Assembly: GCA_963281255.1 (NCBI GenBank)
Contig: OY725497.1
Coordinates: 1,612,001 to 1,676,000 of the forward strand
Reading direction: 5' to 3'
Length of the DNA stretch: 64,000 nucleotides
From: Aphrocallistes beatrix
Lineage: Eukaryota; Porifera; Hexactinellida; Sceptrulophora; Aphrocallistidae
Shown here: piece after piece, positions 1 to 49,496 of the stretch
How positions within the stretch are numbered: position 1 is the first letter of the stretch
Layout: every line of letters starts with the position of its first letter
Notes under the pieces: generated by a model
The model's input: only the letters and a program-made list of their open reading frames with translations
Database searches by the model: none
Told to the model about the DNA's origin: nothing
Translations under genes and position numbers: made by a program

Positions 1-1194
1 CAGAATTTTCTAGCTTTTCACATCACACCTATTTCAGCATACTTGTAGAAAATGGCTTCTAAAGATGATAGTTTCAATTTGAAATGGAGAGCGTATATTG
101 AATTTCGTACAAAACTCAATATCCAGTGCGTACTGATTCACAATGAGTTGCAGGAGATACTAGGCATGGATTGTCCTTCCAGATCCACCATTGAGCGATG
201 GGCTGCACGATTTAGGTCTGGAGATACTGATGTGGCAGATTTACATCGCTCAGGGAGACCGATATCCGTCAGCACTCCAGACAATATAGCAATAATTGGG
301 AGAATGGTGATGGAAGACAGGTTTTTAACCGTCGATCAGATAGCACATAGTATGGAGATGTCATCAGGAGCAATTCATTCAATTCTGACCATTCGTCTTG
401 GCTACCGATCTATTTGTGGCAAATGGGTCCCACATATTCTGAGTGAGAAACAAAGGCTCACCCGAATGAATACAGCCAAGAAGCTCTTGGAAACATATGA
501 TAAGTGTGATTCTAGGCGCCTATCAGAAATTATAACTGGTGATGAGACTTGGGTACCGTTTTCCACTCCATATAGCGAGTATAAAATGCGATCGTGGGTG
601 AAAGGAGATGAAAAACCGGCACAAGTTCCCAGGCCCGATTTCAGAAACCCGAAGGTAATGTATACAATTTTCTTCAACAGTGGCGGTATTGTATTACAAT
701 TACCTTCTGAGAGTGGTAGATCAATCAATGCGACCTATTTTACTCAGAAAATCCTCCCAAACTTGATTAAAAATGTAAATGATGCTCGTCCAAAGGCTGG
801 AATGAGAGGTATTAAATTATTGATTGATAATGCCAGTTCCCACACAGCCAGGCTTACCAAGAATTTTTTGGAATCCGAAAGGATAGAATTACTTCCTCAC
901 CCTCCATACTCACCAGACCTAGCTCCCTGTGATTTTTGGCTCTTTCCAAAGTTGAAAATCTATCTCCAGGGTAAAGAATTTGACACGAGACAAGCACTCG
1001 GAACTGCTTTATACCAGTACTTCAAATCCATCCCCGAAGAAGAGTACAGAAAAGTGTTTTTTCAGTGGGTTGAAAGATTGAGAAAGTGTGTGTCAGTAGG
1101 AGGGGATTACTTTGAATAAAAAATCTACTACATTAGTCTCTATAGTGTATACACTTACTTTTGTGATATGACCCGCAAGACTTTTTGAATGCCC
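1..1194 (+). mobile_element. mariner element, copy 1 (5' end cut by the window edge)
   Basis: The 3' terminal repeat reads, outward in, GGGCATTCAAAAAGTCTTGC and lies at about 1168-1194, followed by a TA dinucleotide that would be the target duplication. The 5' terminal repeat lies outside the window. The 50 bases before the transposase start resemble the same region of copy 2 near 24.55 kb (both have a CTTCAGCATACT-like stretch), so the two belong to one family. Confidence 0.85.
52..1119 (+). CDS. mariner-family transposase, full length
   Basis: A cut-and-paste DNA transposase of 355 codons, the usual length for mariner, with no internal stop. The N-terminal 110 residues contain the two helix-turn-helix DNA-binding regions. 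The WVPHIL linker motif is at residues 125-130. The catalytic triad is visible: D164 in TGDETW, D259 in LIDNASSH and D294 in APCDFWLF. The 34 residues between the last two give the mariner DD34D spacing, and the family signature YSPDLAPCDFWLF is intact. The ATG was chosen because copy 2 starts at the same residues (MASKDDSFNL). The gene could still be functional, but activity cannot be judged without the 5' terminal repeat. It is unrelated to the host genes nearby. Confidence 0.95.
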   Translation: MASKDDSFNLKWRAYIEFRTKLNIQCVLIHNELQEILGMDCPSRSTIERWAARFRSGDTDVADLHRSGRPISVSTPDNIAIIGRMVMEDRFLTVDQIAHSMEMSSGAIHSILTIRLGYRSICGKWVPHILSEKQRLTRMNTAKKLLETYDKCDSRRLSEIITGDETWVPFSTPYSEYKMRSWVKGDEKPAQVPRPDFRNPKVMYTIFFNSGGIVLQLPSESGRSINATYFTQKILPNLIKNVNDARPKAGMRGIKLLIDNASSHTARLTKNFLESERIELLPHPPYSPDLAPCDFWLFPKLKIYLQGKEFDTRQALGTALYQYFKSIPEEEYRKVFFQWVERLRKCVSVGGDYFE

Positions 1195-5306: not shown

Positions 5307-6647
5307 CAGTATGTCCCATAATTATTTAGAATTTTAATAATGACTCATAATTTTTTTTGTTAATTAGTAACATTGTTCGCCTGCTTTTATAAGATAACTG
5401 ATATTGTGTAGTTTAATATTTTATTTTAGAGCCATTGTTATCTATCAATAGTTGGCACCGCTTTGGCATCGAACTCCAATATGGCTCGAGAAAAAATACA
5501 TCTATACTTTCCCATATAGCAACAACATCATCCTTGAGAGCTTTTAGAGTGGCTGGACCTCTTTTAATCAATTCCTGTTTCAACCACGCAAACAAGTTCT
5601 CGATGGGGTTGACATCTGGACTCTGATCTGACTGGGCCAGTCTATGGTATTTTGTGGCATATTCTCTTCCATCCAAGCCTTGGTTATCTTAGCAGTATGT
5701 TTCGGGTCATTATCTTGGACGAGAAACCACTTCTCTCCATGTAAAACACGTGCCTGTTGTAACAAATGTCCATTTAAAATCTCGCAAAATATCTGGGCAG
5801 TTAGATTCTCCCTAAAAATATATAGTGGGAATGTCCTAGCTGACGAAAATGCGGCCCAAATATGGATTTTCTGGGTATGTTTAACTGTTGGTGTAGTTCT
5901 GCTGGTGCCATTTTTGGTCCACATGCGAACACGACCTCTATTTATCCAGATGGATGCTTCATCAGCGAAGATTGCGTCTTCCCAGAAGTTTCTGATATTC
6001 CTGTAAGCCCATTCAACCCTATTAGAACGATTTTTTTCAGATAACATCGGAACTGGGGTGGGGTACGGCTTAGTGTAGTTTAATTTTATTAAACATCGAG
6101 CTACGGTATTTTTTGACACATCAACTGGACATTTGCTTGCCATAGATCTTAAAGAAATATATGGCGTCCTTCGTATTTGTTGTGCAATGCTGTTTCGTAG
6201 AAGTGGAGCCAATTTAGATGGTCTGCCACCTCCCTTGCGATGTTTCATTGAGATATTCGCCTGAATCCTGGTTTTAACGTTGTAGACTGTAGCAAGAGAA
6301 ACACCAATAAGATCAGAAATTTCTCTAGGTGTATGTTTTTTAGCGTCTAATAGCACTCTAATCCGAGCTCTCTTCTCAGTTTGAGTCATTACAATTATAT
6401 GGACCTAATATATGAATAGTTAAATACAGATTAAGAAACTATGCAATTTTGGTCGCATCATCATGACGTCATCATTATATAAAAATTGGAAAAATCCATT
6501 TTAGAATAGGTTTTAGTGTATTACTACATTATCAACGATTATTGACATAAGGTTGATTAATAAAAGTACCAGTATTAGAGCTTAATCTAGTCAGATATCG
6601 AAAAAGATTGAATCAAGCAAAATTCTAAATAATTATGGGACATACTG
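5307..6647 (-). mobile_element. Tc1-like element A, complete ends
   Basis: Terminal inverted repeats starting CAGTATGTCCCATAATTATT lie at both ends, each flanked by TA, the Tc1/mariner target duplication. The 1341-bp length is normal for Tc1. The single transposase gene inside is frameshifted. Confidence 0.93.
5413..6389 (-). pseudogene. Tc1-like transposase, one frameshift
   Basis: The ATG at 6389 opens a transposase with an N-terminal paired-like helix-turn-helix (about residues 1-50) and a GGGRPSKL hinge. The first catalytic aspartate is D143 in IFADEAS and the second is D226 in LVQDNDPKH. A small insertion around 5595-5615 then breaks the frame just after WPSQ. The other frame supplies SPDVNPIENLFAWLK with the catalytic glutamate and runs to a normal C-terminus ending GSKIKY at 5413. 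Apart from that break the protein looks intact. It is about 60% alike by eye to the intact transposase at 48248-49240, and both end FKIKY or SKIKY. Confidence 0.92.
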
Positions 6648-8053: not shown

Positions 8054-9397
8054 CAGTCTGTTTCATAATTATTTACAATTTTTGAGGTGATTTTGAATGA
8101 CCATAACTTACTATGAAATCTGTTAGGCAGTACTTCAATGCAATTTTTCTCAACTATACACTCATCCTAACGATTTCTATTGATACCTTTCCAACTCTTT
8201 GATACTCAACTTTTTTTTAAATTTTTTCACTTCCGGCGGGCTTTTTTCTCTCTTTTTGGTCTCGAAGTTAATTCTGACAAGCTAGTTAAGGCAATTCAAC
8301 TAATTTTCAGCGAATAATGCAGAAACAACTTAGAGAAGACGTGGCTAAGCTCATTGAAACTTCAAAACTTCCAATGAAGGACATTGCTTCTATGTGCGGT
8401 GTCACCCTGAAGACGGCCTATTATGTTAAGCAACGAATTTCAGCGGGCGAAAGCATTGAGCACAGGGGCGGAGCTGGGCCTAAAAGGTGCCTCAACAAAG
8501 GAGACAGGATCTCACTCTCTCTAAATATTAAAAACAATCCCCGAATTTATTTGCGGACTATGTAGAGTAGTCTAAAGGTTTCACGAGACGTTGATGTGTC
8601 GTATTCAACGGTGAGGAGATGCATCAAAGAGATGTCCTATTCCAAGAAAACTGCAATCAAAGGACCAAATATTACTCCCTCCCATGAAGCATTGAGAGTT
8701 TTATGGGCTAAGAAACACAAGTTCATCAATTGGAACAAGATCTTCTTTACGGATGAGTGTTCCATTTGGCTTTGTGGCGGGAAAGTACAGATGTGGACCA
8801 AGGGTACTCAAAAGTCCGTCATCAACATTCCGAGACATTCACCCAAGATCCATATTTGGGGAGGGATATCTACTCGAGGAACTACTCCTGTGCATATTTT
8901 TAGAGAGAATTTCAATTCTATCGCATATTGTAATGTGATAAATGAATGTTTGACAGAGACAGCAGACCTACTCTACCCAGACGGTTGGAAACTCCAGGAG
9001 GATATTTCGAGCATTCATAAATCCAAGCTCTCTGTCTCATACAAAGAGGAACGCGCCATTAGATGTATAGATTGGCCATCCTGCAGCCCTGATTTGAATC
9101 CTATAGAGAATTTATGGGCTGTTCTGAAGAAAAGGATTCTAAACAGGGCTCCTAAGACGATTGAAGATGTAAAAAACTATGTAGATATAGAGTGGGGAAC
9201 CTTTGATCCTGAATTCATTGGCAACTTCACAAAATCTATGCGTAAGCGGTACGACCTTGTGATAGCTGCTCAAGGCAAAAAGATTAACTATTAAACCACA
9301 TAGAACCAAAATAAAACTTGAATGAGTGAGTACATATCAACTTGAGTTTTCAAGTTACATTGGGTATAATAATTGTAAATAATTATGAAACAGACTG
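8054..9397 (+). mobile_element. Tc1-like element B, complete ends
   Basis: Inverted repeats starting CAGTCTGTTTCATAATTATT lie at both ends with flanking TA. The 1344-bp element is inserted within the hAT relic of the opposite strand. Confidence 0.93.
8317..9294 (+). pseudogene. Tc1-like transposase with a single in-frame stop
   Basis: The frame stays the same from ATG 8317 to the stop after KKINY at 9294, about 325 codons, broken only by a TAG at 8563-8565 just after LRTM. The helix-turn-helix is in residues 1-50. The first catalytic aspartate is in FFTDECSIW. The second is in LQEDISSIHKSK, where the usual DN is DI. The glutamate is in SPDLNPIENLW. By count, 34 residues lie between the last two, the standard Tc1 spacing. 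Apart from the stop and the lost Asn the copy is well preserved. A fragment of a close relative lies at 57.1-57.4 kb. Confidence 0.92.
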
Positions 9398-11761: not shown

Positions 11762-12041
11762 TATGTCGGTTAGTGATATTAAGTTGATTTTGGCATTTGT
11801 GGCACAAGGTAGTACTGATAGATAATTTTAAAACATTGGAAATGAATATTCTTTAGAAATATTCTACTAGAACTTATCCAAATGTGTGGATCTCAATCTG
11901 AAATCTGATTTTTTTCATTCTTTACTGTTTAGAATTATTGGGTTTCACGGAGAGAAACAAATTTTAGTATTATTTGGATTTGAAATAATTAGGTGGTTGA
12001 TTAATTTTGTCTGATAGTCTATAAATATGTGTATACCCTAG

Positions 12042-13489
12042 GCATTGGTAACGAAATCAATGATAAACATATAGCAAAAGGAAATGGCTCTTGTCAGAAG
12101 AATGTTGAACTATCCCCTTCAAAAGATGTGATTTTGTCAAATTCAGATTTAGAATTGAGCAATGATTGTTTCATTATCCATTTTCTCAACGTTTTATTAA
12201 GAAAGATTATGATTGAAAATTGTCTAAATCGAGAAAGTAGATCAAAATATTCTGCTTTAATGCCTCACAATTTTAATCGAAAGAAAAACATTCAGGATAT
12301 TCATCAGCATATTTTCATTAGAGACCTCTTAATTGAAAAGAAGAAATTACTTCTACTTTGCAAAAAGGTAATTGGGCTATTGAAGTCAATTTTACCAGAA
12401 GATGTCAACATTGAAGAATTTTTCAGCCAATATAATGAAGTTGGAAAATCAAAAACCCAAAGTTTTGTTCCGCAAGACCAATTTAGTAAAGAAAATACGA
12501 TATATCTAATCAAGGAGATGACTATTAGGAGTTTAGAGCCAAATATTGAAATTTTAATTCATAAACATAATAGAAAAATTAGAGAACTAAATTCTTTACA
12601 TCAATTTGAAATTAATGAACTTGAAAACAAAATTAAATCGTCTTATTCTGGAGTGGTAAGAAGTTTAGAACAAAAGTTCGATTATCAGCTAAAATATTTT
12701 TCAAACAATTTACAATGTAAATCTTTGCAAGAATCTAAAAAAATAGCAATCCGAATAAACGATGAATCTGAAAGAAGTAGAAGTGAACACATATTGCAAC
12801 TTAAGTCAAAAATAGCGGCAATTCGGAAAGAACTACGAGATTTGAAAATTATTTTAACTGATCAAAATGATGAGTTAATTGACCTGAATCAAAATATACA
12901 TATTTTCTTAAAGAAACTTAAGGTTCGATTAACTGAAGAGGTTAGTGAAAGATGTTTATTCTATCTTCAAAGATTAATGAGACTTTTGGAGTCGAAATGT
13001 GAACAAATATTGGAAATAAAACACAAATTAAATGAAAATATTTTCGATCATACTATATCTCAAGAATTATTTAAGTTGAAGAAAGAGAGAGATGAAGAAA
13101 TTGAGAATATAATATTTAAATTGGAACAGAATTTCAACGATGAAAAGCATAAATTGAATATGAGAAACGAAAGAAAAATATGTAAACTTAAGGAAGAATA
13201 TGAACATAAATTGAATCAATTGATTAATACAAGTCAAGCGACCATTCAAAGTGCATTTCCTCTTGAATTTAAGAATGATTTGGTTTTAAAATTGGGATGC
13301 TATTCGAGTGATGTTCATGATTCTTTAATTAAAAATAATATTAGCTCTGATTATCAAAGTGCTAATGATTATGATAAAATAACCTATGAGAGAATATCTT
13401 ATTTGGAAGAAACAATTGAGCAATTAAAATTGGAGAATACACACCTAAAAAATTATATTAGAAAGATTGATATACAGAAAGATAATTGA
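12042..13489 (+). CDS. CEP131/AZI1-like coiled-coil protein, C-terminal exon
   Basis: An open frame of about 480 codons, rich in Lys, Glu, Leu and Ile, and mostly predicted coiled coil. Several segments line up with the C-terminal half of CEP131 (AZI1), a centriolar-satellite protein needed for cilia formation. They are IEKKKLLLLCKKVIGLLKS (residues about 102-120), RSLEPNIEILIHKHNRKIRE (167-186) and KKERDEEIENIIFKLEQNF (351-369). The last precedes a KLKEEYEHKLNQL helix. These match the LEPEIQ...HK and GRDKEIE...LE stretches known in the family. Vertebrate CEP131 is about 1,080 residues, so upstream exons are expected. The frame is preceded by a plausible acceptor (TATACCCTAG at 12032-12041) and has no early Met codon. 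The stop is TGA. A poly-A signal follows 48 bp downstream. Confidence 0.7.
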
Positions 13490-24399: not shown

Positions 24400-25089
24400 A
24401 TATGCTGTTCAATTAGTCTTGCGGGTCATACTATATTTCGCTATTTGTAACAGTAAACCAGTCTGTTTTAATATATAATACAACCTTATATCTTAGCTTA
24501 ATTCACTGAAAATCTTAGCTTGATTGAATAATAACTTTAAGCTTCTGATCAATTCATTTACATATCACTTCAGCATACTAGTAACATTATGGCTTCCAAG
24601 GATGACAGTTTTAACCTGAAATTGAGGGCGTACATCGAATTTCGCACAAAACTCCATATCCAACCAGTACTCATCTACAACGAGTTGCAGGGTATATTAT
24701 GCATGGATTGCCATTCCAGATTTATGGTAGAGCGATGGGCTACACGATTTCAGTCTGGAAATACAGACGTCACGGATCTACCTCGGTCTGGAAGACCAGT
24801 GCCCGTCACCACCCTAGAAAATGTTGCTCTAATCGAGAGTAAAGTCGTGGAAAATAAGTGTATTACAATCGATCAGTTAGAGCAGGGTATGGAAATCTCA
24901 TCGGGGGTCATTTATTCTATTCTGACTACTCAGCTTGGATACCGATCGATTTGCGGGAAATGGGTCCCCCACATCCTCAGCGATCAGCAAAAATTTGCAC
25001 TCGTGAATACGGCCAAGAAACTCTTGGAAACCTATGAGAACTGTGATCCTGGACGTCTAGCAGAAGTAAAAACCAGTGATGAGACTTGA
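24400..25089 (+). mobile_element. mariner element, copy 2, 3'-truncated
   Basis: The 5' terminal repeat is similar to the end of copy 1 (TCTTGCGGGTCATA core at 24416-24429). The element stops being recognisable after the first catalytic block. It sits next to the end of a hairpin/microsatellite element. Confidence 0.85.
24589..25089 (+). pseudogene. mariner transposase, N-terminal half only
   Basis: Opens with MASKDDSFNLK like copy 1 and stays collinear through the DNA-binding region and the KWVPHIL linker to the first aspartate block. There TGDETW has become SDET followed by TGA (W to stop) at 25087-25089. The catalytic D2 and D3 parts are gone and the downstream sequence is unrelated. Confidence 0.92.
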
Positions 25090-26330: not shown

Positions 26331-27416
26331 CGGGCGTTCAATAAGTTCTGATCAGTACACTGGAAAACATTTAAAATACACAATAAACAAGCTGTTAATG
26401 TTTTCAATTTTGGCTTTTACCTGCTTGGTTTTGTGAGGGCGGGCATTATCGTGCAATAATTTTAACCCCTTTGCTCCAGTACTAGGTCTTCGTTTAAAAA
26501 GTCTTTGTTCAACTTCACGAAGACACTGGTTAGTATAGAAATTCCCTGTAATGGTTTGTCCTTTTGGAGCTATTATCTGCGCAACTGGGCCATATCAATC
26601 AAAGAATATACAGTACATCACCTTGGATGACCTGAAATCGGGCCTAGGGATCATTGGTGGATCTGAGTGACTCTCCTTCCACACCTTATTCGCTTCTTTA
26701 GATAGAGGTGTGCTATACTGTACCCACGTTTCATCACCAGTCACTACTTCAAATAAACGGCGAGGGTCAGCTCCTTTATACAATTTTAAGAGGTTTCGGC
26801 AACATCTAACCCTGGTTGCCATTTGGGCCTTTGTTAAGTAATGAGGGACCCATCGAGCACAAACCTTTGATAGATTGAGTTTTGACTTTAGAATGTGATC
26901 AACACTTCCCGTTGAGATCCCAATAATATGAGCTAACTCTTTAACAGTGATATGAGGATCTGAATCAACGAGTTCCTTAATAGCACTGGAATACTTGGGG
27001 ACAACCGCCGTAACAGGTGCTCCAGCCCGAGGGTCATCTTCCACAGACTCTCTACCTACTCTAAAGCGCTGGGCCCATCGTCTGACTCCAGGATAAGATA
27101 GAGCACTTTTCATGCCGTAGACTTGCACCAAGTCAACATGTATATCGTGCGCAGATTTCCCGAGCAGAGTACGAATCTTAACGTATGATCTCTGCTCAAT
27201 ATTAGAATTCTTCTTTGATGACGCCATAATTGATTAGTATGCAAAATCGGTTTTACAAAATAATGTGTAAATCGTATATCGTATATGGAATATCAAGATG
27301 AAATAAAAACTGACTTTTAGGTAATTGATAAAATAAACATATTCTATGAGCGAATTATGGTACTTGTACAATATAGTCATGTTATCTCTTAATGATCAGA
27401 ACTTATTGAACGCCCG
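26331..27416 (-). mobile_element. mariner element, copy 3, internally deleted
   Basis: Near-perfect inverted repeats CGGGCGTTCAATAAGTTCTG lie at both ends, each flanked by TA. The 1,086-bp element is shorter than a full mariner because the region for the last third of the transposase is missing. It sits inside the foldback element 26219-27756. Confidence 0.92.
26405..27227 (-). pseudogene. mariner transposase, truncated
   Basis: Starts MASSKKNSNIEQRSYVKIRT at 27227 and is open for 210 codons through the WVPHYL linker and the first catalytic block (VTGDETWVQYSTP). A TGA in place of a Ser codon after IFFD ends the frame. The same frame then continues through TITGNFYTNQCLREVEQRLF to the second aspartate in LLHDNARPH, and stops being recognisable after KTKQVKAKIEN. 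The third aspartate is absent. This mariner subfamily differs from copies 1 and 2. Confidence 0.92.
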
Positions 27417-36090: not shown

Positions 36091-38067
36091 ATGTTTGAAC
36101 CTAGCAAATTTTTGATGGCTACTATGAGTTCTTTGGATACTAATTATTTGGGGTATGCTGTCCTGATAGTAAATTCATACAGAGAAAACACTTCACGATA
36201 TCCTGTAATTAATGGGACTGGTTATGATGAAAAAGAACTAAAGTTCAAGTTAGAAGAAGTTGGTTTTTTTGTTTATTCAATGTATTGTGCAGAGATTAAA
36301 GACTATCGTTCTTATATTTATAAACTCAATAGTATGCACAAAAATTTCCCATTTATCCTTTTTATTTTTAGTGGCTACGAGAACGGCTCACAGATTATTT
36401 TTGAAGATGGCAGTGGTATCGAATATGAAAATGTTTATAATGATTTGTCCAGTCCATTAACTTCATGGTCGAAATGCCCTAAAGTGATTATTATTAATAC
36501 TTATAAACCCCGATTAGGTTTAAAATCTCTCTTCAATATTAAATCAAAATCACTCCCATTTTTTAAGAGACCTCTCTGTTTGACTTTACAAGTCAGTCAT
36601 TCCGCTGGTGCAGCTGAAAAGCGTGGTCCTAATGTCCATGATATATTCGTTTCCAAATTTATTGAAGAATTGAATATTTCTGATCAGGGAGTTCATAACT
36701 CTGATTTTAGTTCTATTTTGAAACATGTGAAAAGATCAATAGAAACAATTTCTAGAGATGCTGAATTGAACATTACAGTGAGATTAGATGATCAACTCAT
36801 TGAACCTCTAGAATTATTTTTCCTTCCTTCCTTAAAAAAAAATACTTCCACTTCTCTGTCCGGAAATCAATCAATCGATACAAACATTTTTGATAATATT
36901 ACTAGTATTACTGATGGACTAGAAACCGTAGATTGGTTCTACGGTAATATGTCACGTGAGTCTTCTGAATCCCTTCTGAAATATGATGGGGATTTTCTAA
37001 TACGTCAAAGTGACTCAAAAGAAAATAGTGGTAGATATGTTATGTCAGTTCTCTATCGCAATATGCTTTATCAAATCCCCCTTTTTATTTCAAAGTTTGG
37101 TGTGCACATAAAGAATGAACCTTCATTCAAAAAATTAACTGAATTGGTTAATTATTATTGTTTACAGTCTCACCCGATTCCAATACATGATACCTTAATA
37201 CGTATCCTCCAAACACCCCGTCTCCAAACATCTCAATCACTGTACAAATATTCTCAACCTACTTTAATAATACCTAAGCCAGAGAACAATTTCGAGAAAT
37301 GGTTTCATGGGAGGGTTGAGCGCGATTATGTTCAACAATGTCTTTACAACGATGGTGATTTTCTGGTTTGGGAATCTGATTCATGTTTTGTTATAAGTTA
37401 TGTTTATCATAAAGAAATTCATAATATATATGCTTGTTTTACATCCGATGGTGAAGTTTCAACAGATCTCATTTCTGGGAAATTTGAGAGCATAAATGAT
37501 CTTGTTCAACACCTTATTTTGCACCATTCCTATTATAGAGGAGTTCTTCTAAAAAATGCTATACCTCCACCTATTTCTCCTCTGATATATACTCAGTCTT
37601 CAAACATTCCACCATCAAAACATAATTATGTAAGTGAAATTGATGTTCATTCTCCAGGGATTGTTTACTCGCCGCTCAAAGAAAAATCATTTAATAAATT
37701 TGAAAGGGATGAAAATCTACTTATTGATGCTTCAATTCCTCTAATTAATCAAAAATGGTTTTCTAAAACACTAAATAGTTCTGATGTAGTTAGAATTCTC
37801 GAAAGAAATGGGGATTTTTTAGTAAGGACGAGCCAAAATAGACCTGGACATCTTTCACTTTCTGTCAAAGCAGGTGGGAAAATCCAGACTTTTGGCATTT
37901 TCGCAGGTGGAAATGGTGGATACACACTTGATCCTAATGCGTCTCCTGAGTTTGAAAACATATGCGAATTGATATATTACTATGTGACAACAAAACAGCA
38001 ACTTCCTGCTACATTGGGCCCAGATACCTTTCTCAAACGACCAATAATGATTTCAAAATGCAATTAA
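36091..38067 (+). CDS. Pseudo-caspase with three SH2 domains
   Basis: A 658-codon uninterrupted gene. Residues about 18-246 have the caspase fold pattern: GYAVLIVNSYRENTSRYPVI, then NGTGYDEKELKFKLEEVGFF. A p10-like part follows (LCLTLQVSHSAGAAEKRG; HDIFVSKFIEEL; ILKHVKRSIETI; ELFFLP). The catalytic positions are lost. The SHG histidine block is SGY (residues 94-96, His to Gly). The QACRG cysteine block is NTYKP, with Tyr at 138. Three SH2 domains follow. SH2-1 (about 281-370) has FLIRQS with the phosphotyrosine-binding Arg305. SH2-2 (about 403-490) has FLVWES, Trp427 replacing that Arg. SH2-3 (about 555-650) has FLVRTS with Arg579. The likely role is a scaffold linking phosphotyrosine signals to cell-death or signalling complexes. 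It should be catalytically dead and cytoplasmic (no signal peptide or membrane helix). The ATG at 36091 is the first after an in-frame stop at 36067. Confidence 0.85.
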   Translation: MFEPSKFLMATMSSLDTNYLGYAVLIVNSYRENTSRYPVINGTGYDEKELKFKLEEVGFFVYSMYCAEIKDYRSYIYKLNSMHKNFPFILFIFSGYENGSQIIFEDGSGIEYENVYNDLSSPLTSWSKCPKVIIINTYKPRLGLKSLFNIKSKSLPFFKRPLCLTLQVSHSAGAAEKRGPNVHDIFVSKFIEELNISDQGVHNSDFSSILKHVKRSIETISRDAELNITVRLDDQLIEPLELFFLPSLKKNTSTSLSGNQSIDTNIFDNITSITDGLETVDWFYGNMSRESSESLLKYDGDFLIRQSDSKENSGRYVMSVLYRNMLYQIPLFISKFGVHIKNEPSFKKLTELVNYYCLQSHPIPIHDTLIRILQTPRLQTSQSLYKYSQPTLIIPKPENNFEKWFHGRVERDYVQQCLYNDGDFLVWESDSCFVISYVYHKEIHNIYACFTSDGEVSTDLISGKFESINDLVQHLILHHSYYRGVLLKNAIPPPISPLIYTQSSNIPPSKHNYVSEIDVHSPGIVYSPLKEKSFNKFERDENLLIDASIPLINQKWFSKTLNSSDVVRILERNGDFLVRTSQNRPGHLSLSVKAGGKIQTFGIFAGGNGGYTLDPNASPEFENICELIYYYVTTKQQLPATLGPDTFLKRPIMISKCN

Positions 38068-48140: not shown

Positions 48141-49496
48141 CAGTATGCGGCCATATTTATTTAGAATGACTAAAATGTAGATATATGGATAATAGAGGAG
48201 GTTCATTGTACTTTTTAAACTGCAATCTAATGATACATAAGTAGGGGCTAATATTTAATTTTAAAACCATGGTTATCCAATACCATATTGCATCTTTTAG
48301 GCATTGACTCCCAGTATGGACGTAAAAAATCAGGATCTATGTTTTCCCAGATTTTTTGAAGACGTTTCTTCAGTTCTCCAATGGTCGTCGGACGCTTGTG
48401 CGGGAGTCGATTTAGTTGGTATTTAATCCAGGCGAACAGATTTTCAATCGGATTTAAATCCGGACTTTGGCTGGGCCATATGAAGGTATTCTTGGGCATT
48501 TTTTCTTTCATCCATGCTTTGGCAACGTTAGAACTGTGCTTAGGGTCGTTATCTTGGACCAAAAACCATTTATTCTCATGGAAAACCTTGGCTTGGTCTA
48601 ATAAATGCCACTCTAGGATCTTACAAAAGGATGACCCAGTCAAGTTTTGACTAAATATGCATAAAGGAAATGTCCCACACGAGGAGAAGGCAGCCCAGAT
48701 GTGTATTTTAGACGAGTGTTTTGTTGTAGGATAAAATCGTTTTTTGTTCCCCTTTGTCCATATCTTTACACGACCTCTTGATAACCAAAATGAAGCTTCA
48801 TCTGCGAAAATCGCATGCTGCCATCGAGTACGCTTATTTTTCTTGGCCCATAAAATGCGTTTAGACCTGTTAGCTTCACTAAGCATTGGTACAGCTGTCG
48901 GGAAACCCTTATGGTATTTAAGTTTTTTTGCGGATCGACGCACGGTACGAATGGAAGCTGTACCCCCTGAAGAAAGTATTTTGGCATGTATATCATGCAA
49001 TGTAATTGCTCCATTACTTCTTCTGATTTGTTGCGATACTTTGTATTTGATTGCATCGTGTACAACTGGAGGTCTACCAGCCCCCTTTTGATGGTTTAGT
49101 GTGGCATCTTTGATCATTCGCTTTCTTGTATTATAAACTGTGGCCAATGAAACATCAACTATTTGAGAAATCTCTTTAGGAGTGTGTTTTTTTCCATCAA
49201 TTAGTGTTTTAATTTGTTGTCTCTTTGAATATTGCGACATGAATTCAATAAAGGAATCTAACTTATTTTAGAAAGATACACAGAAAATAATTAAACATTC
49301 CGATGACGTCACCAATATTTAAAATAAAAAAGTATACACGAATAATATTTTAGAAAGTGAGAAGTCATGTTTTTCGAAAGAGCATTTTCATACAAGAGTT
49401 ATACAGGCAGTATGATGTTGATAATTTAACTTGGTTGTGTATAAATCGTAATAATACTGTATTCTTGGTTTTCTAAATAAATATGGCCGCATACTG
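48141..49496 (-). mobile_element. Tc1-like element D, intact
   Basis: Near-perfect inverted repeats CAGTATGCGGCCATATTTAT at both ends, TA on each side, 1,356 bp, and an uninterrupted transposase gene. Every part needed for an autonomous Tc1 element is visible. Confidence 0.95.
48248..49240 (-). CDS. Tc1-like transposase, intact
   Basis: 330 codons from ATG (MSQYSKRQQIK) to a TAA after HGFKIKY. An N-terminal paired-type helix-turn-helix (residues 5-45) is followed by the GAGRPP hinge at 53-58, a second DNA-binding helix set to about 110, and the DDE core. D147 is in IFADEAS, D230 in LVQDNDPKH and E266 in SPDLNPIENLF. By direct count 35 residues lie between D230 and E266, one more than the usual Tc1 DD34E; element A has the same spacing. 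No frameshift, stop or missing key residue was found, so the element may be active or only recently silenced. Confidence 0.95.
   Translation of the reverse strand: MSQYSKRQQIKTLIDGKKHTPKEISQIVDVSLATVYNTRKRMIKDATLNHQKGAGRPPVVHDAIKYKVSQQIRRSNGAITLHDIHAKILSSGGTASIRTVRRSAKKLKYHKGFPTAVPMLSEANRSKRILWAKKNKRTRWQHAIFADEASFWLSRGRVKIWTKGNKKRFYPTTKHSSKIHIWAAFSSCGTFPLCIFSQNLTGSSFCKILEWHLLDQAKVFHENKWFLVQDNDPKHSSNVAKAWMKEKMPKNTFIWPSQSPDLNPIENLFAWIKYQLNRLPHKRPTTIGELKKRLQKIWENIDPDFLRPYWESMPKRCNMVLDNHGFKIKY

Follow-up and report, generated by a model that had tools for sequence, protein, structure and literature searches.

The window, that is, the whole stretch of 64 kb of Aphrocallistes DNA analyzed here (C11:1612001-1676000 of genome G000, which comprises 100.5 Mb in 28 contigs), carries a gene whose single open frame joins a pseudo-caspase p20-like head to three SH2 domains (Table 1). 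Of the window's 11 open reading frames that reach 150 aa or more, this frame is the longest, and the genome reading of the same frame is open for 665 codons with no stops. The first-pass annotation had called a single-exon gene at this position, and the frame proves genuine, as it runs uninterrupted from ATG to stop and is kept in a paralogue and in relatives. Judged from the open frame alone, the gene appears to have no further exon. Genes of one exon are frequent in glass sponges, and the Aphrocallistes genome report counts, for Aphrocallistes, 19,578 genes and 12,409 single-exon transcripts and, for Oopsacas, 16,340 genes and 9,872 such transcripts (PMC10282587). Elsewhere in the window, a mariner-type transposase frame of 355 aa lies at 52-1119 (+) and a Tc1/Tc3-type transposase frame of 330 aa at 48248-49240 (-), while transposase-like pieces were recognized, by eye only, at 5580-6389, 8596-9294, 24589-25089, and 26595-27227. 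A 486-aa frame at 12029-13489 (+) has the look of a coiled coil by eye and is without a Pfam match.

Table 1 Features of the gene, with positions counted from the first letter of the 64-kb window
Feature	Position	Strand	Basis
One-frame gene, pseudo-caspase p20-like head and three SH2 domains	36091..38067	+	ATG-to-stop frame, 658 aa; seven relatives
Caspase p20-like domain, about residues 20-142	36148..36516	+	Pfam C14 in relatives, hhalign, PDB profile matches
Ile40 at the P1-pocket Arg column	36208..36210	+	hhalign alignment; Ile in 6/6 covering members
Tyr96 at the catalytic His column	36376..36378	+	hhalign and PDB-profile alignments; Tyr in 7/7 covering members
Tyr138 at the catalytic Cys column, motif NTYKP	36502..36504	+	hhalign alignment; Tyr in 7/7 covering members
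p10-position region, residues 158-246	36562..36828	+	kept among relatives; p10 likeness by eye
SH2-1, residues 280-372	36928..37206	+	Pfam; genome HMM match 36934-37158; betaB5 Arg305 kept (GDFLIR)
SH2-2, residues 402-492	37294..37566	+	genome HMM match 37300-37512; betaB5 Arg replaced by Trp427 (GDFLVW)
SH2-3, residues 552-652	37744..38046	+	genome HMM match 37756-37983; betaB5 Arg579 kept (GDFLVR)

The carboxy-terminal part of the protein is the more readily recognized. Pfam places SH2 (PF00017) on three stretches of the window protein (E = 3.3e-38), near the limits proposed for them at first pass, and the other Pfam matches up to E 10 were to two DUF models, both of which overlap the SH2 domains. 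The FLVR arginine of SH2-1 is present in 7/7 covering members of the family, in the motif GDFLIR or GDFLVR, and that of SH2-3 in 8/8 members, in the motif GDFLVR or GDFIVR. The reading of three SH2 copies had, however, missed what sets the middle one apart. SH2-2 reads GDFLVW in 8/8 members, with a tryptophan in place of the phosphotyrosine-binding arginine, and on the alignment this constant tryptophan is a positive trait that characterizes the family. Among the best 60 of 267 PDB matches, the nearest relatives of SH2-1 are SHC, SYK, ABL, and VAV2, and those of SH2-3 are SHP-2 and Fer.

The head shows its affinity through the family rather than through the window protein by itself. An HMM search, suggested at first pass as a check, found Peptidase_C14 (PF00656) in 5/8 family members (E = 0.078, 0.0015, 7.5e-4, 2.7e-4, and 3.4e-5) and SH2 in 8/8. 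P0006 is the single member above the curated PF00656 cut-off, and the three members without a C14 match include both of those in which the region is wholly or partly missing. With the window protein alone, the C14 model was not reached in Pfam even at E 10, and its head alone retrieved no caspase from PDB, the one match being a chance one to seipin (E = 0.71). Aligned by hhalign with 11 caspase sequences from its own genome, the head profile scored 49.8 over 118 columns (P = 1.7e-6). None of 200 column-shuffled head profiles scored as high, their maximum being 27.7, while the reversed head profile gave 17.6 and the SH2 profiles, used as a control against the same caspases, gave 16.6 and 12.3. 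In addition, when the head profile was run against PDB by hmmsearch with E up to 10, 14 of the 14 chains matched were caspases, CED-3 included, each match being weak and nonsignificant when taken singly (E = 0.3-1.5). Collectively, the relatives and profiles support the descent of the p20-like head from a caspase p20 domain, as far as sequence comparison can carry it.

The caspase pattern had initially been traced through residues 18-246, and while the p20 half of that claim is supported, the p10 half is not. The p10 part alone scored 12.9 against the caspases, a value equalled by shuffles in 31/100 cases, and when the p10 part was shuffled with the p20 part anchored, 44/100 versions scored as well. 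Since a forced alignment brings the expected p10 motif positions together, a worn caspase p10 in residues 158-246 is possible. Caspases and c-FLIP dimerize via the p10 half; with p10 homology unsupported, caspase-type dimerization is not implied by the sequence of the window protein. Pfam gave no match to CARD, DED, or death domain in the 658-aa frame, upstream of which a further exon may lie.

Within the p20-like head, the residues on which caspase catalysis would depend are replaced (Table 1). The first-pass annotation had described dead catalytic blocks reading SGY and NTYKP. Both motifs are correct and both columns hold tyrosine, but the His column lies one residue further on than had been thought, at Tyr96. 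The third position, occupied by isoleucine, corresponds to the P1-pocket arginine, which we take, in role and numbering, to be Arg64 of caspase-3. Moreover, aspartate is absent from residues 140-160 in 7/7 covering members, so that this linker offers no obvious caspase-type self-processing site. Read from these aligned columns, the head has lost the His-Cys dyad as well as the P1-pocket arginine.

Seven relatives of 432-683 aa (P0002-P0008) were identified among about 5.8 billion proteins, with 41-46% identity in the alignment. P0002-P0006 are complete, P0007 is without the beginning of its head, and P0008, the hypothetical protein LOD99_11314 of Oopsacas minuta, misses most of the head and most of SH2-1. 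The gap in LOD99_11314 is perhaps a gene-model or assembly fault, and a fault of this kind in the record would hide the architecture. Each of six relatives (581-683 aa) is predicted as one protein having this domain order, and the layout, whose recurrence in related genomes had been put forward as a check, is the same wherever the records of the seven relatives are complete. Because one of them comes from Oopsacas, we infer that P0002-P0007 belong to glass sponges as well. The alignment search, taken up to E 1, returned 22 proteins, of which eight are the family, the window protein included, and 14 are generic SH2 proteins. Outside the seven relatives, the architecture was not found in the approximately 5.8 billion proteins by this search, which reaches just those relatives that share short exact words with the query, and only generic SH2 proteins lay beyond.

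Taken region by region, the family members are on average 45% identical to the window protein in the p20-like domain and 46% in the p10-position region, and 52%, 55%, and 52% in SH2-1, SH2-2, and SH2-3, respectively. With 45% set against 52-55%, the head is held about as firmly as the SH2 domains. The linkers at residues 247-274, 373-401, and 493-543 have a mean identity of 13-19%, the exception among linkers being that between the p20 and p10 parts (residues 139-157), with 54%.

Two further genes of the same genome bear on this architecture. The first, at C9:260315-261958 (-) (locus L022, 2316-3959), is a paralogue of 547 aa that carries the same head and two SH2 domains on one frame. Its head is 29% identical to the window head over residues 17-141 (E = 2.1e-4) and joins the family with E = 2.1e-13 by hmmsearch (Z = 20000) and P = 2.4e-10 by hhalign, whereas its direct matches to caspases are weak (Pfam E = 0.083, hhalign P = 0.0012). 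The His column of the paralogue holds tyrosine (LGYS) and its Cys column phenylalanine (MDTFD). Because this head is also dead at both columns, the loss of the dyad probably predates the duplication that separated the C9 and window genes.

The second gene, at C3:6311412-6313050 (-) (locus L021, 4913-6551), encodes a caspase with SHG and GCRG motifs followed by SH3 and SH2. Two introns (81 and 97 bases, with GT-AG at their borders) are inferred in it, and its caspase part is recognized by Pfam in two of the three exon frames (E = 1.1e-6 and 1.4e-21). The SH3-SH2 module finds its best PDB matches in Src (E about 1e-16), and no kinase stands behind the SH2 of this gene, the frame ending after SH2. 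Its counterpart in Oopsacas is LOD99_7762, a hypothetical protein of 487 aa with PF00656 and PF00017, with which it shares 62% identity across 97% of the query. When LOD99_7762 is aligned with caspase-3 (5iar), the His, Cys, and two Arg positions are all present in it, and the C3 protein shares them. This caspase-SH3-SH2 gene may be of more interest than the window gene itself.

Genome-wide, 58 caspase places were set against 62 SH2 places, and the single pair within 20 kb of each other is the C3 gene. The window gene and its C9 paralogue are not among the 58 caspase-model matches, presumably because their heads have diverged too far for the caspase family search. To place the SH2 domains of these genes, a tree of 48 domains was built from 39 of the 62 genome SH2 places, taken as retrieved regions, and six further places from the window gene (three), the C9 gene (two), and the C3 gene (one), with the domains of P0002 as the only ones from relatives. 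C14:16547, which holds a stop, was dropped, and 16 places that were partial, stop-containing, or near copies were left out. With 27 of its 45 inner branches open, the tree is silent on an internal duplication of the three SH2 domains of the window protein.

Set beside known systems, the window protein shares single traits with several of them. Like the long form of c-FLIP, it combines a conserved caspase-derived domain lacking the dyad with domains suited to recruitment. However, c-FLIP is recruited through tandem DEDs and keeps its p10 pairing with caspase-8, whereas the window protein has SH2 domains for any recruitment, no DED matched in its frame, and a p10 that is not recognizable. Membership of the window protein in c-FLIP is not supported, and a c-FLIP-like mechanism for it is unproven. 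As described in part of the c-FLIP literature, c-FLIP both helps and hinders caspase (PMC4819448). With the caspases (PF00656), the window head shares a p20 core that aligns and motif positions that fall in register, but it differs from them in having Tyr and Tyr for His and Cys, Ile for the P1 Arg, no linker Asp, and no detected p10. Compared with SH2 adaptors and with the SH2 domains of SHP-2, Fer, and SHC, SH2-1 and SH2-3 are ordinary, with the FLVR arginine present, whereas the protein as a whole has three SH2 domains, the middle one without the arginine, and a caspase-like head where those proteins have a phosphatase, kinase, or PTB domain. Likewise, the caspase-SH3-SH2 type represented by LOD99_7762 resembles the window protein in placing a caspase fold and SH2 in one polypeptide, but its dyad and P1-pocket Arg are intact, it has one Src-type SH3-SH2 instead of three SH2 domains, and it has introns. 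The two architectures are probably separate fusions.

An engineered parallel exists in the artificial adaptors joining DED to PTB or SH2, which, as cited in a later article, divert signaling by tyrosine kinases toward caspases (Howard 2003, cited in PMC2575513). They resemble the window protein in tying phosphotyrosine recognition to the caspase pathway, a tie that for the window protein is proposed, and differ from it in being engineered and in using a DED in place of a caspase-fold domain. A less direct input from tyrosine kinases has been described for caspase-8, which is phosphorylated and binds the Src SH2 (PMC4839753). In Amphimedon, SH2 or caspase is reported as being among the alternative tails of TRADD-N proteins, a different layout (PMC8195603). 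Titles and abstract openings in the open-licence literature yielded no description of a caspase-SH2 fusion, and the words 'caspase' and 'SH2' are absent from the main text of the Oopsacas and Aphrocallistes genome papers (PMC10280926, PMC10282587).

Our preferred reading, which we hold with moderate confidence, is that the product of the gene is a phosphotyrosine adaptor headed by a pseudo-caspase domain, so far known from glass sponges alone. Once a tyrosine kinase has acted, SH2-1 and SH2-3 would bind two phosphotyrosines on a receptor or scaffold and so dock the protein there, with SH2-2 serving as a structural spacer or making a phospho-independent contact. The dead head might then recruit, hold, or restrain a caspase-type partner without cutting. 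As candidate partner we favor the separate caspase-SH3-SH2 protein with its intact dyad, on the grounds that the two proteins have domain types in common and occur together in two species, the present one and Oopsacas. A pseudo-enzyme scaffold coupling tyrosine-kinase signals to a caspase-type complex had been envisaged from the outset. The dead head on an SH2 adaptor has held up, with the seven relatives keeping the dead motifs where they cover them and the domain order where their records are complete, whereas the link to a caspase complex is one that we infer. That link gains some support from the presence of the intact-dyad caspase-SH3-SH2 protein in this genome and in Oopsacas, and loses some because the p10 is unsupported and no death-fold domain was matched in the frame.

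An unlikely alternative, though one with several observations in its favor, is that the protein is an ordinary phosphotyrosine adaptor in which the p20 fold has been reused for other partners, with no caspase contact and no role in cell death. The dyad and P1 Arg are gone, the linker is without Asp, and the p10 is not recognizable, and the head, kept approximately as strongly as the SH2 domains, has some constrained role. However, the genome has 58 caspase-model matches, and the intact-dyad caspase-SH3-SH2 gene indicates that the pairing of these domains recurs.

We consider it distinctly doubtful that the protein is a decoy acting against the caspase-SH3-SH2 protein, competing for the same phosphotyrosine sites or for caspase-domain pairing, as c-FLIP does on caspase-8. 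The two proteins do resemble each other in having a head of caspase type and, at the carboxy terminus, an SH2 with the FLVR Arg intact, and each is present in Oopsacas as well as in this genome. Nevertheless, their SH2 domains are not close, that of the C3 protein being Src-like and those of the window protein resembling SHP-2, SHC, and Fer among the best 60 of 267 matches; the SH2 tree, poorly resolved as it is, does not join the window and C3 domains; and the surface needed for p10 pairing is unsupported.

That the gene is an artefact is highly improbable even though it sits among mariner/Tc transposase frames: a decayed gene is argued against by the intact, stop-free single frame and the seven relatives, transposon cargo by the retention of the gene in relatives and by the adjoining transposases lying on separate frames, and two neighboring genes read as one by the six relatives predicted as one protein in the same order and by the C9 paralogue, whose single frame spans the two halves.

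The initiator caspases of well-studied animals are assembled by death-fold domains (CARD, DED, and Death). Beyond the adaptor reading of the window gene, we tentatively suggest, at somewhat less than even confidence, that glass sponges fused phosphotyrosine recognition to the caspase fold, probably more than once, giving rise to an intact caspase-SH3-SH2 protein and to a line of dead-caspase proteins, each carrying two or three SH2 domains, that tune it. If this is true, tyrosine kinases could switch a caspase on or off without a death-fold adaptor, and the proteins would be the natural equivalent of those engineered adaptors. Natural fusions of SH2 and the caspase fold in early-branching animals, one dead and one with catalytic residues, would constitute a direct shortcut from kinase to caspase and would offer a compact system for the origins of pseudo-enzymes and the wiring of kinases to cell death. 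In particular, the invariant Tyr-for-His and Tyr-for-Cys replacements and the Arg-to-Trp swap in SH2-2 make clear point predictions for binding.

The genome also holds caspases of more familiar appearance. A cluster of about 109 kb at C17:338779-447685 contains 25 of the 58 caspase matches. None of the eight DED matches in the genome lies above the curated cut-off. Five of the nine CARD matches stand directly before a caspase match on the same strand, in open frames of 833-1739 codons; these CARD-caspases lie at C18:3320924-3322009 and within C17:419564-448110, four of the five in the C17 cluster.
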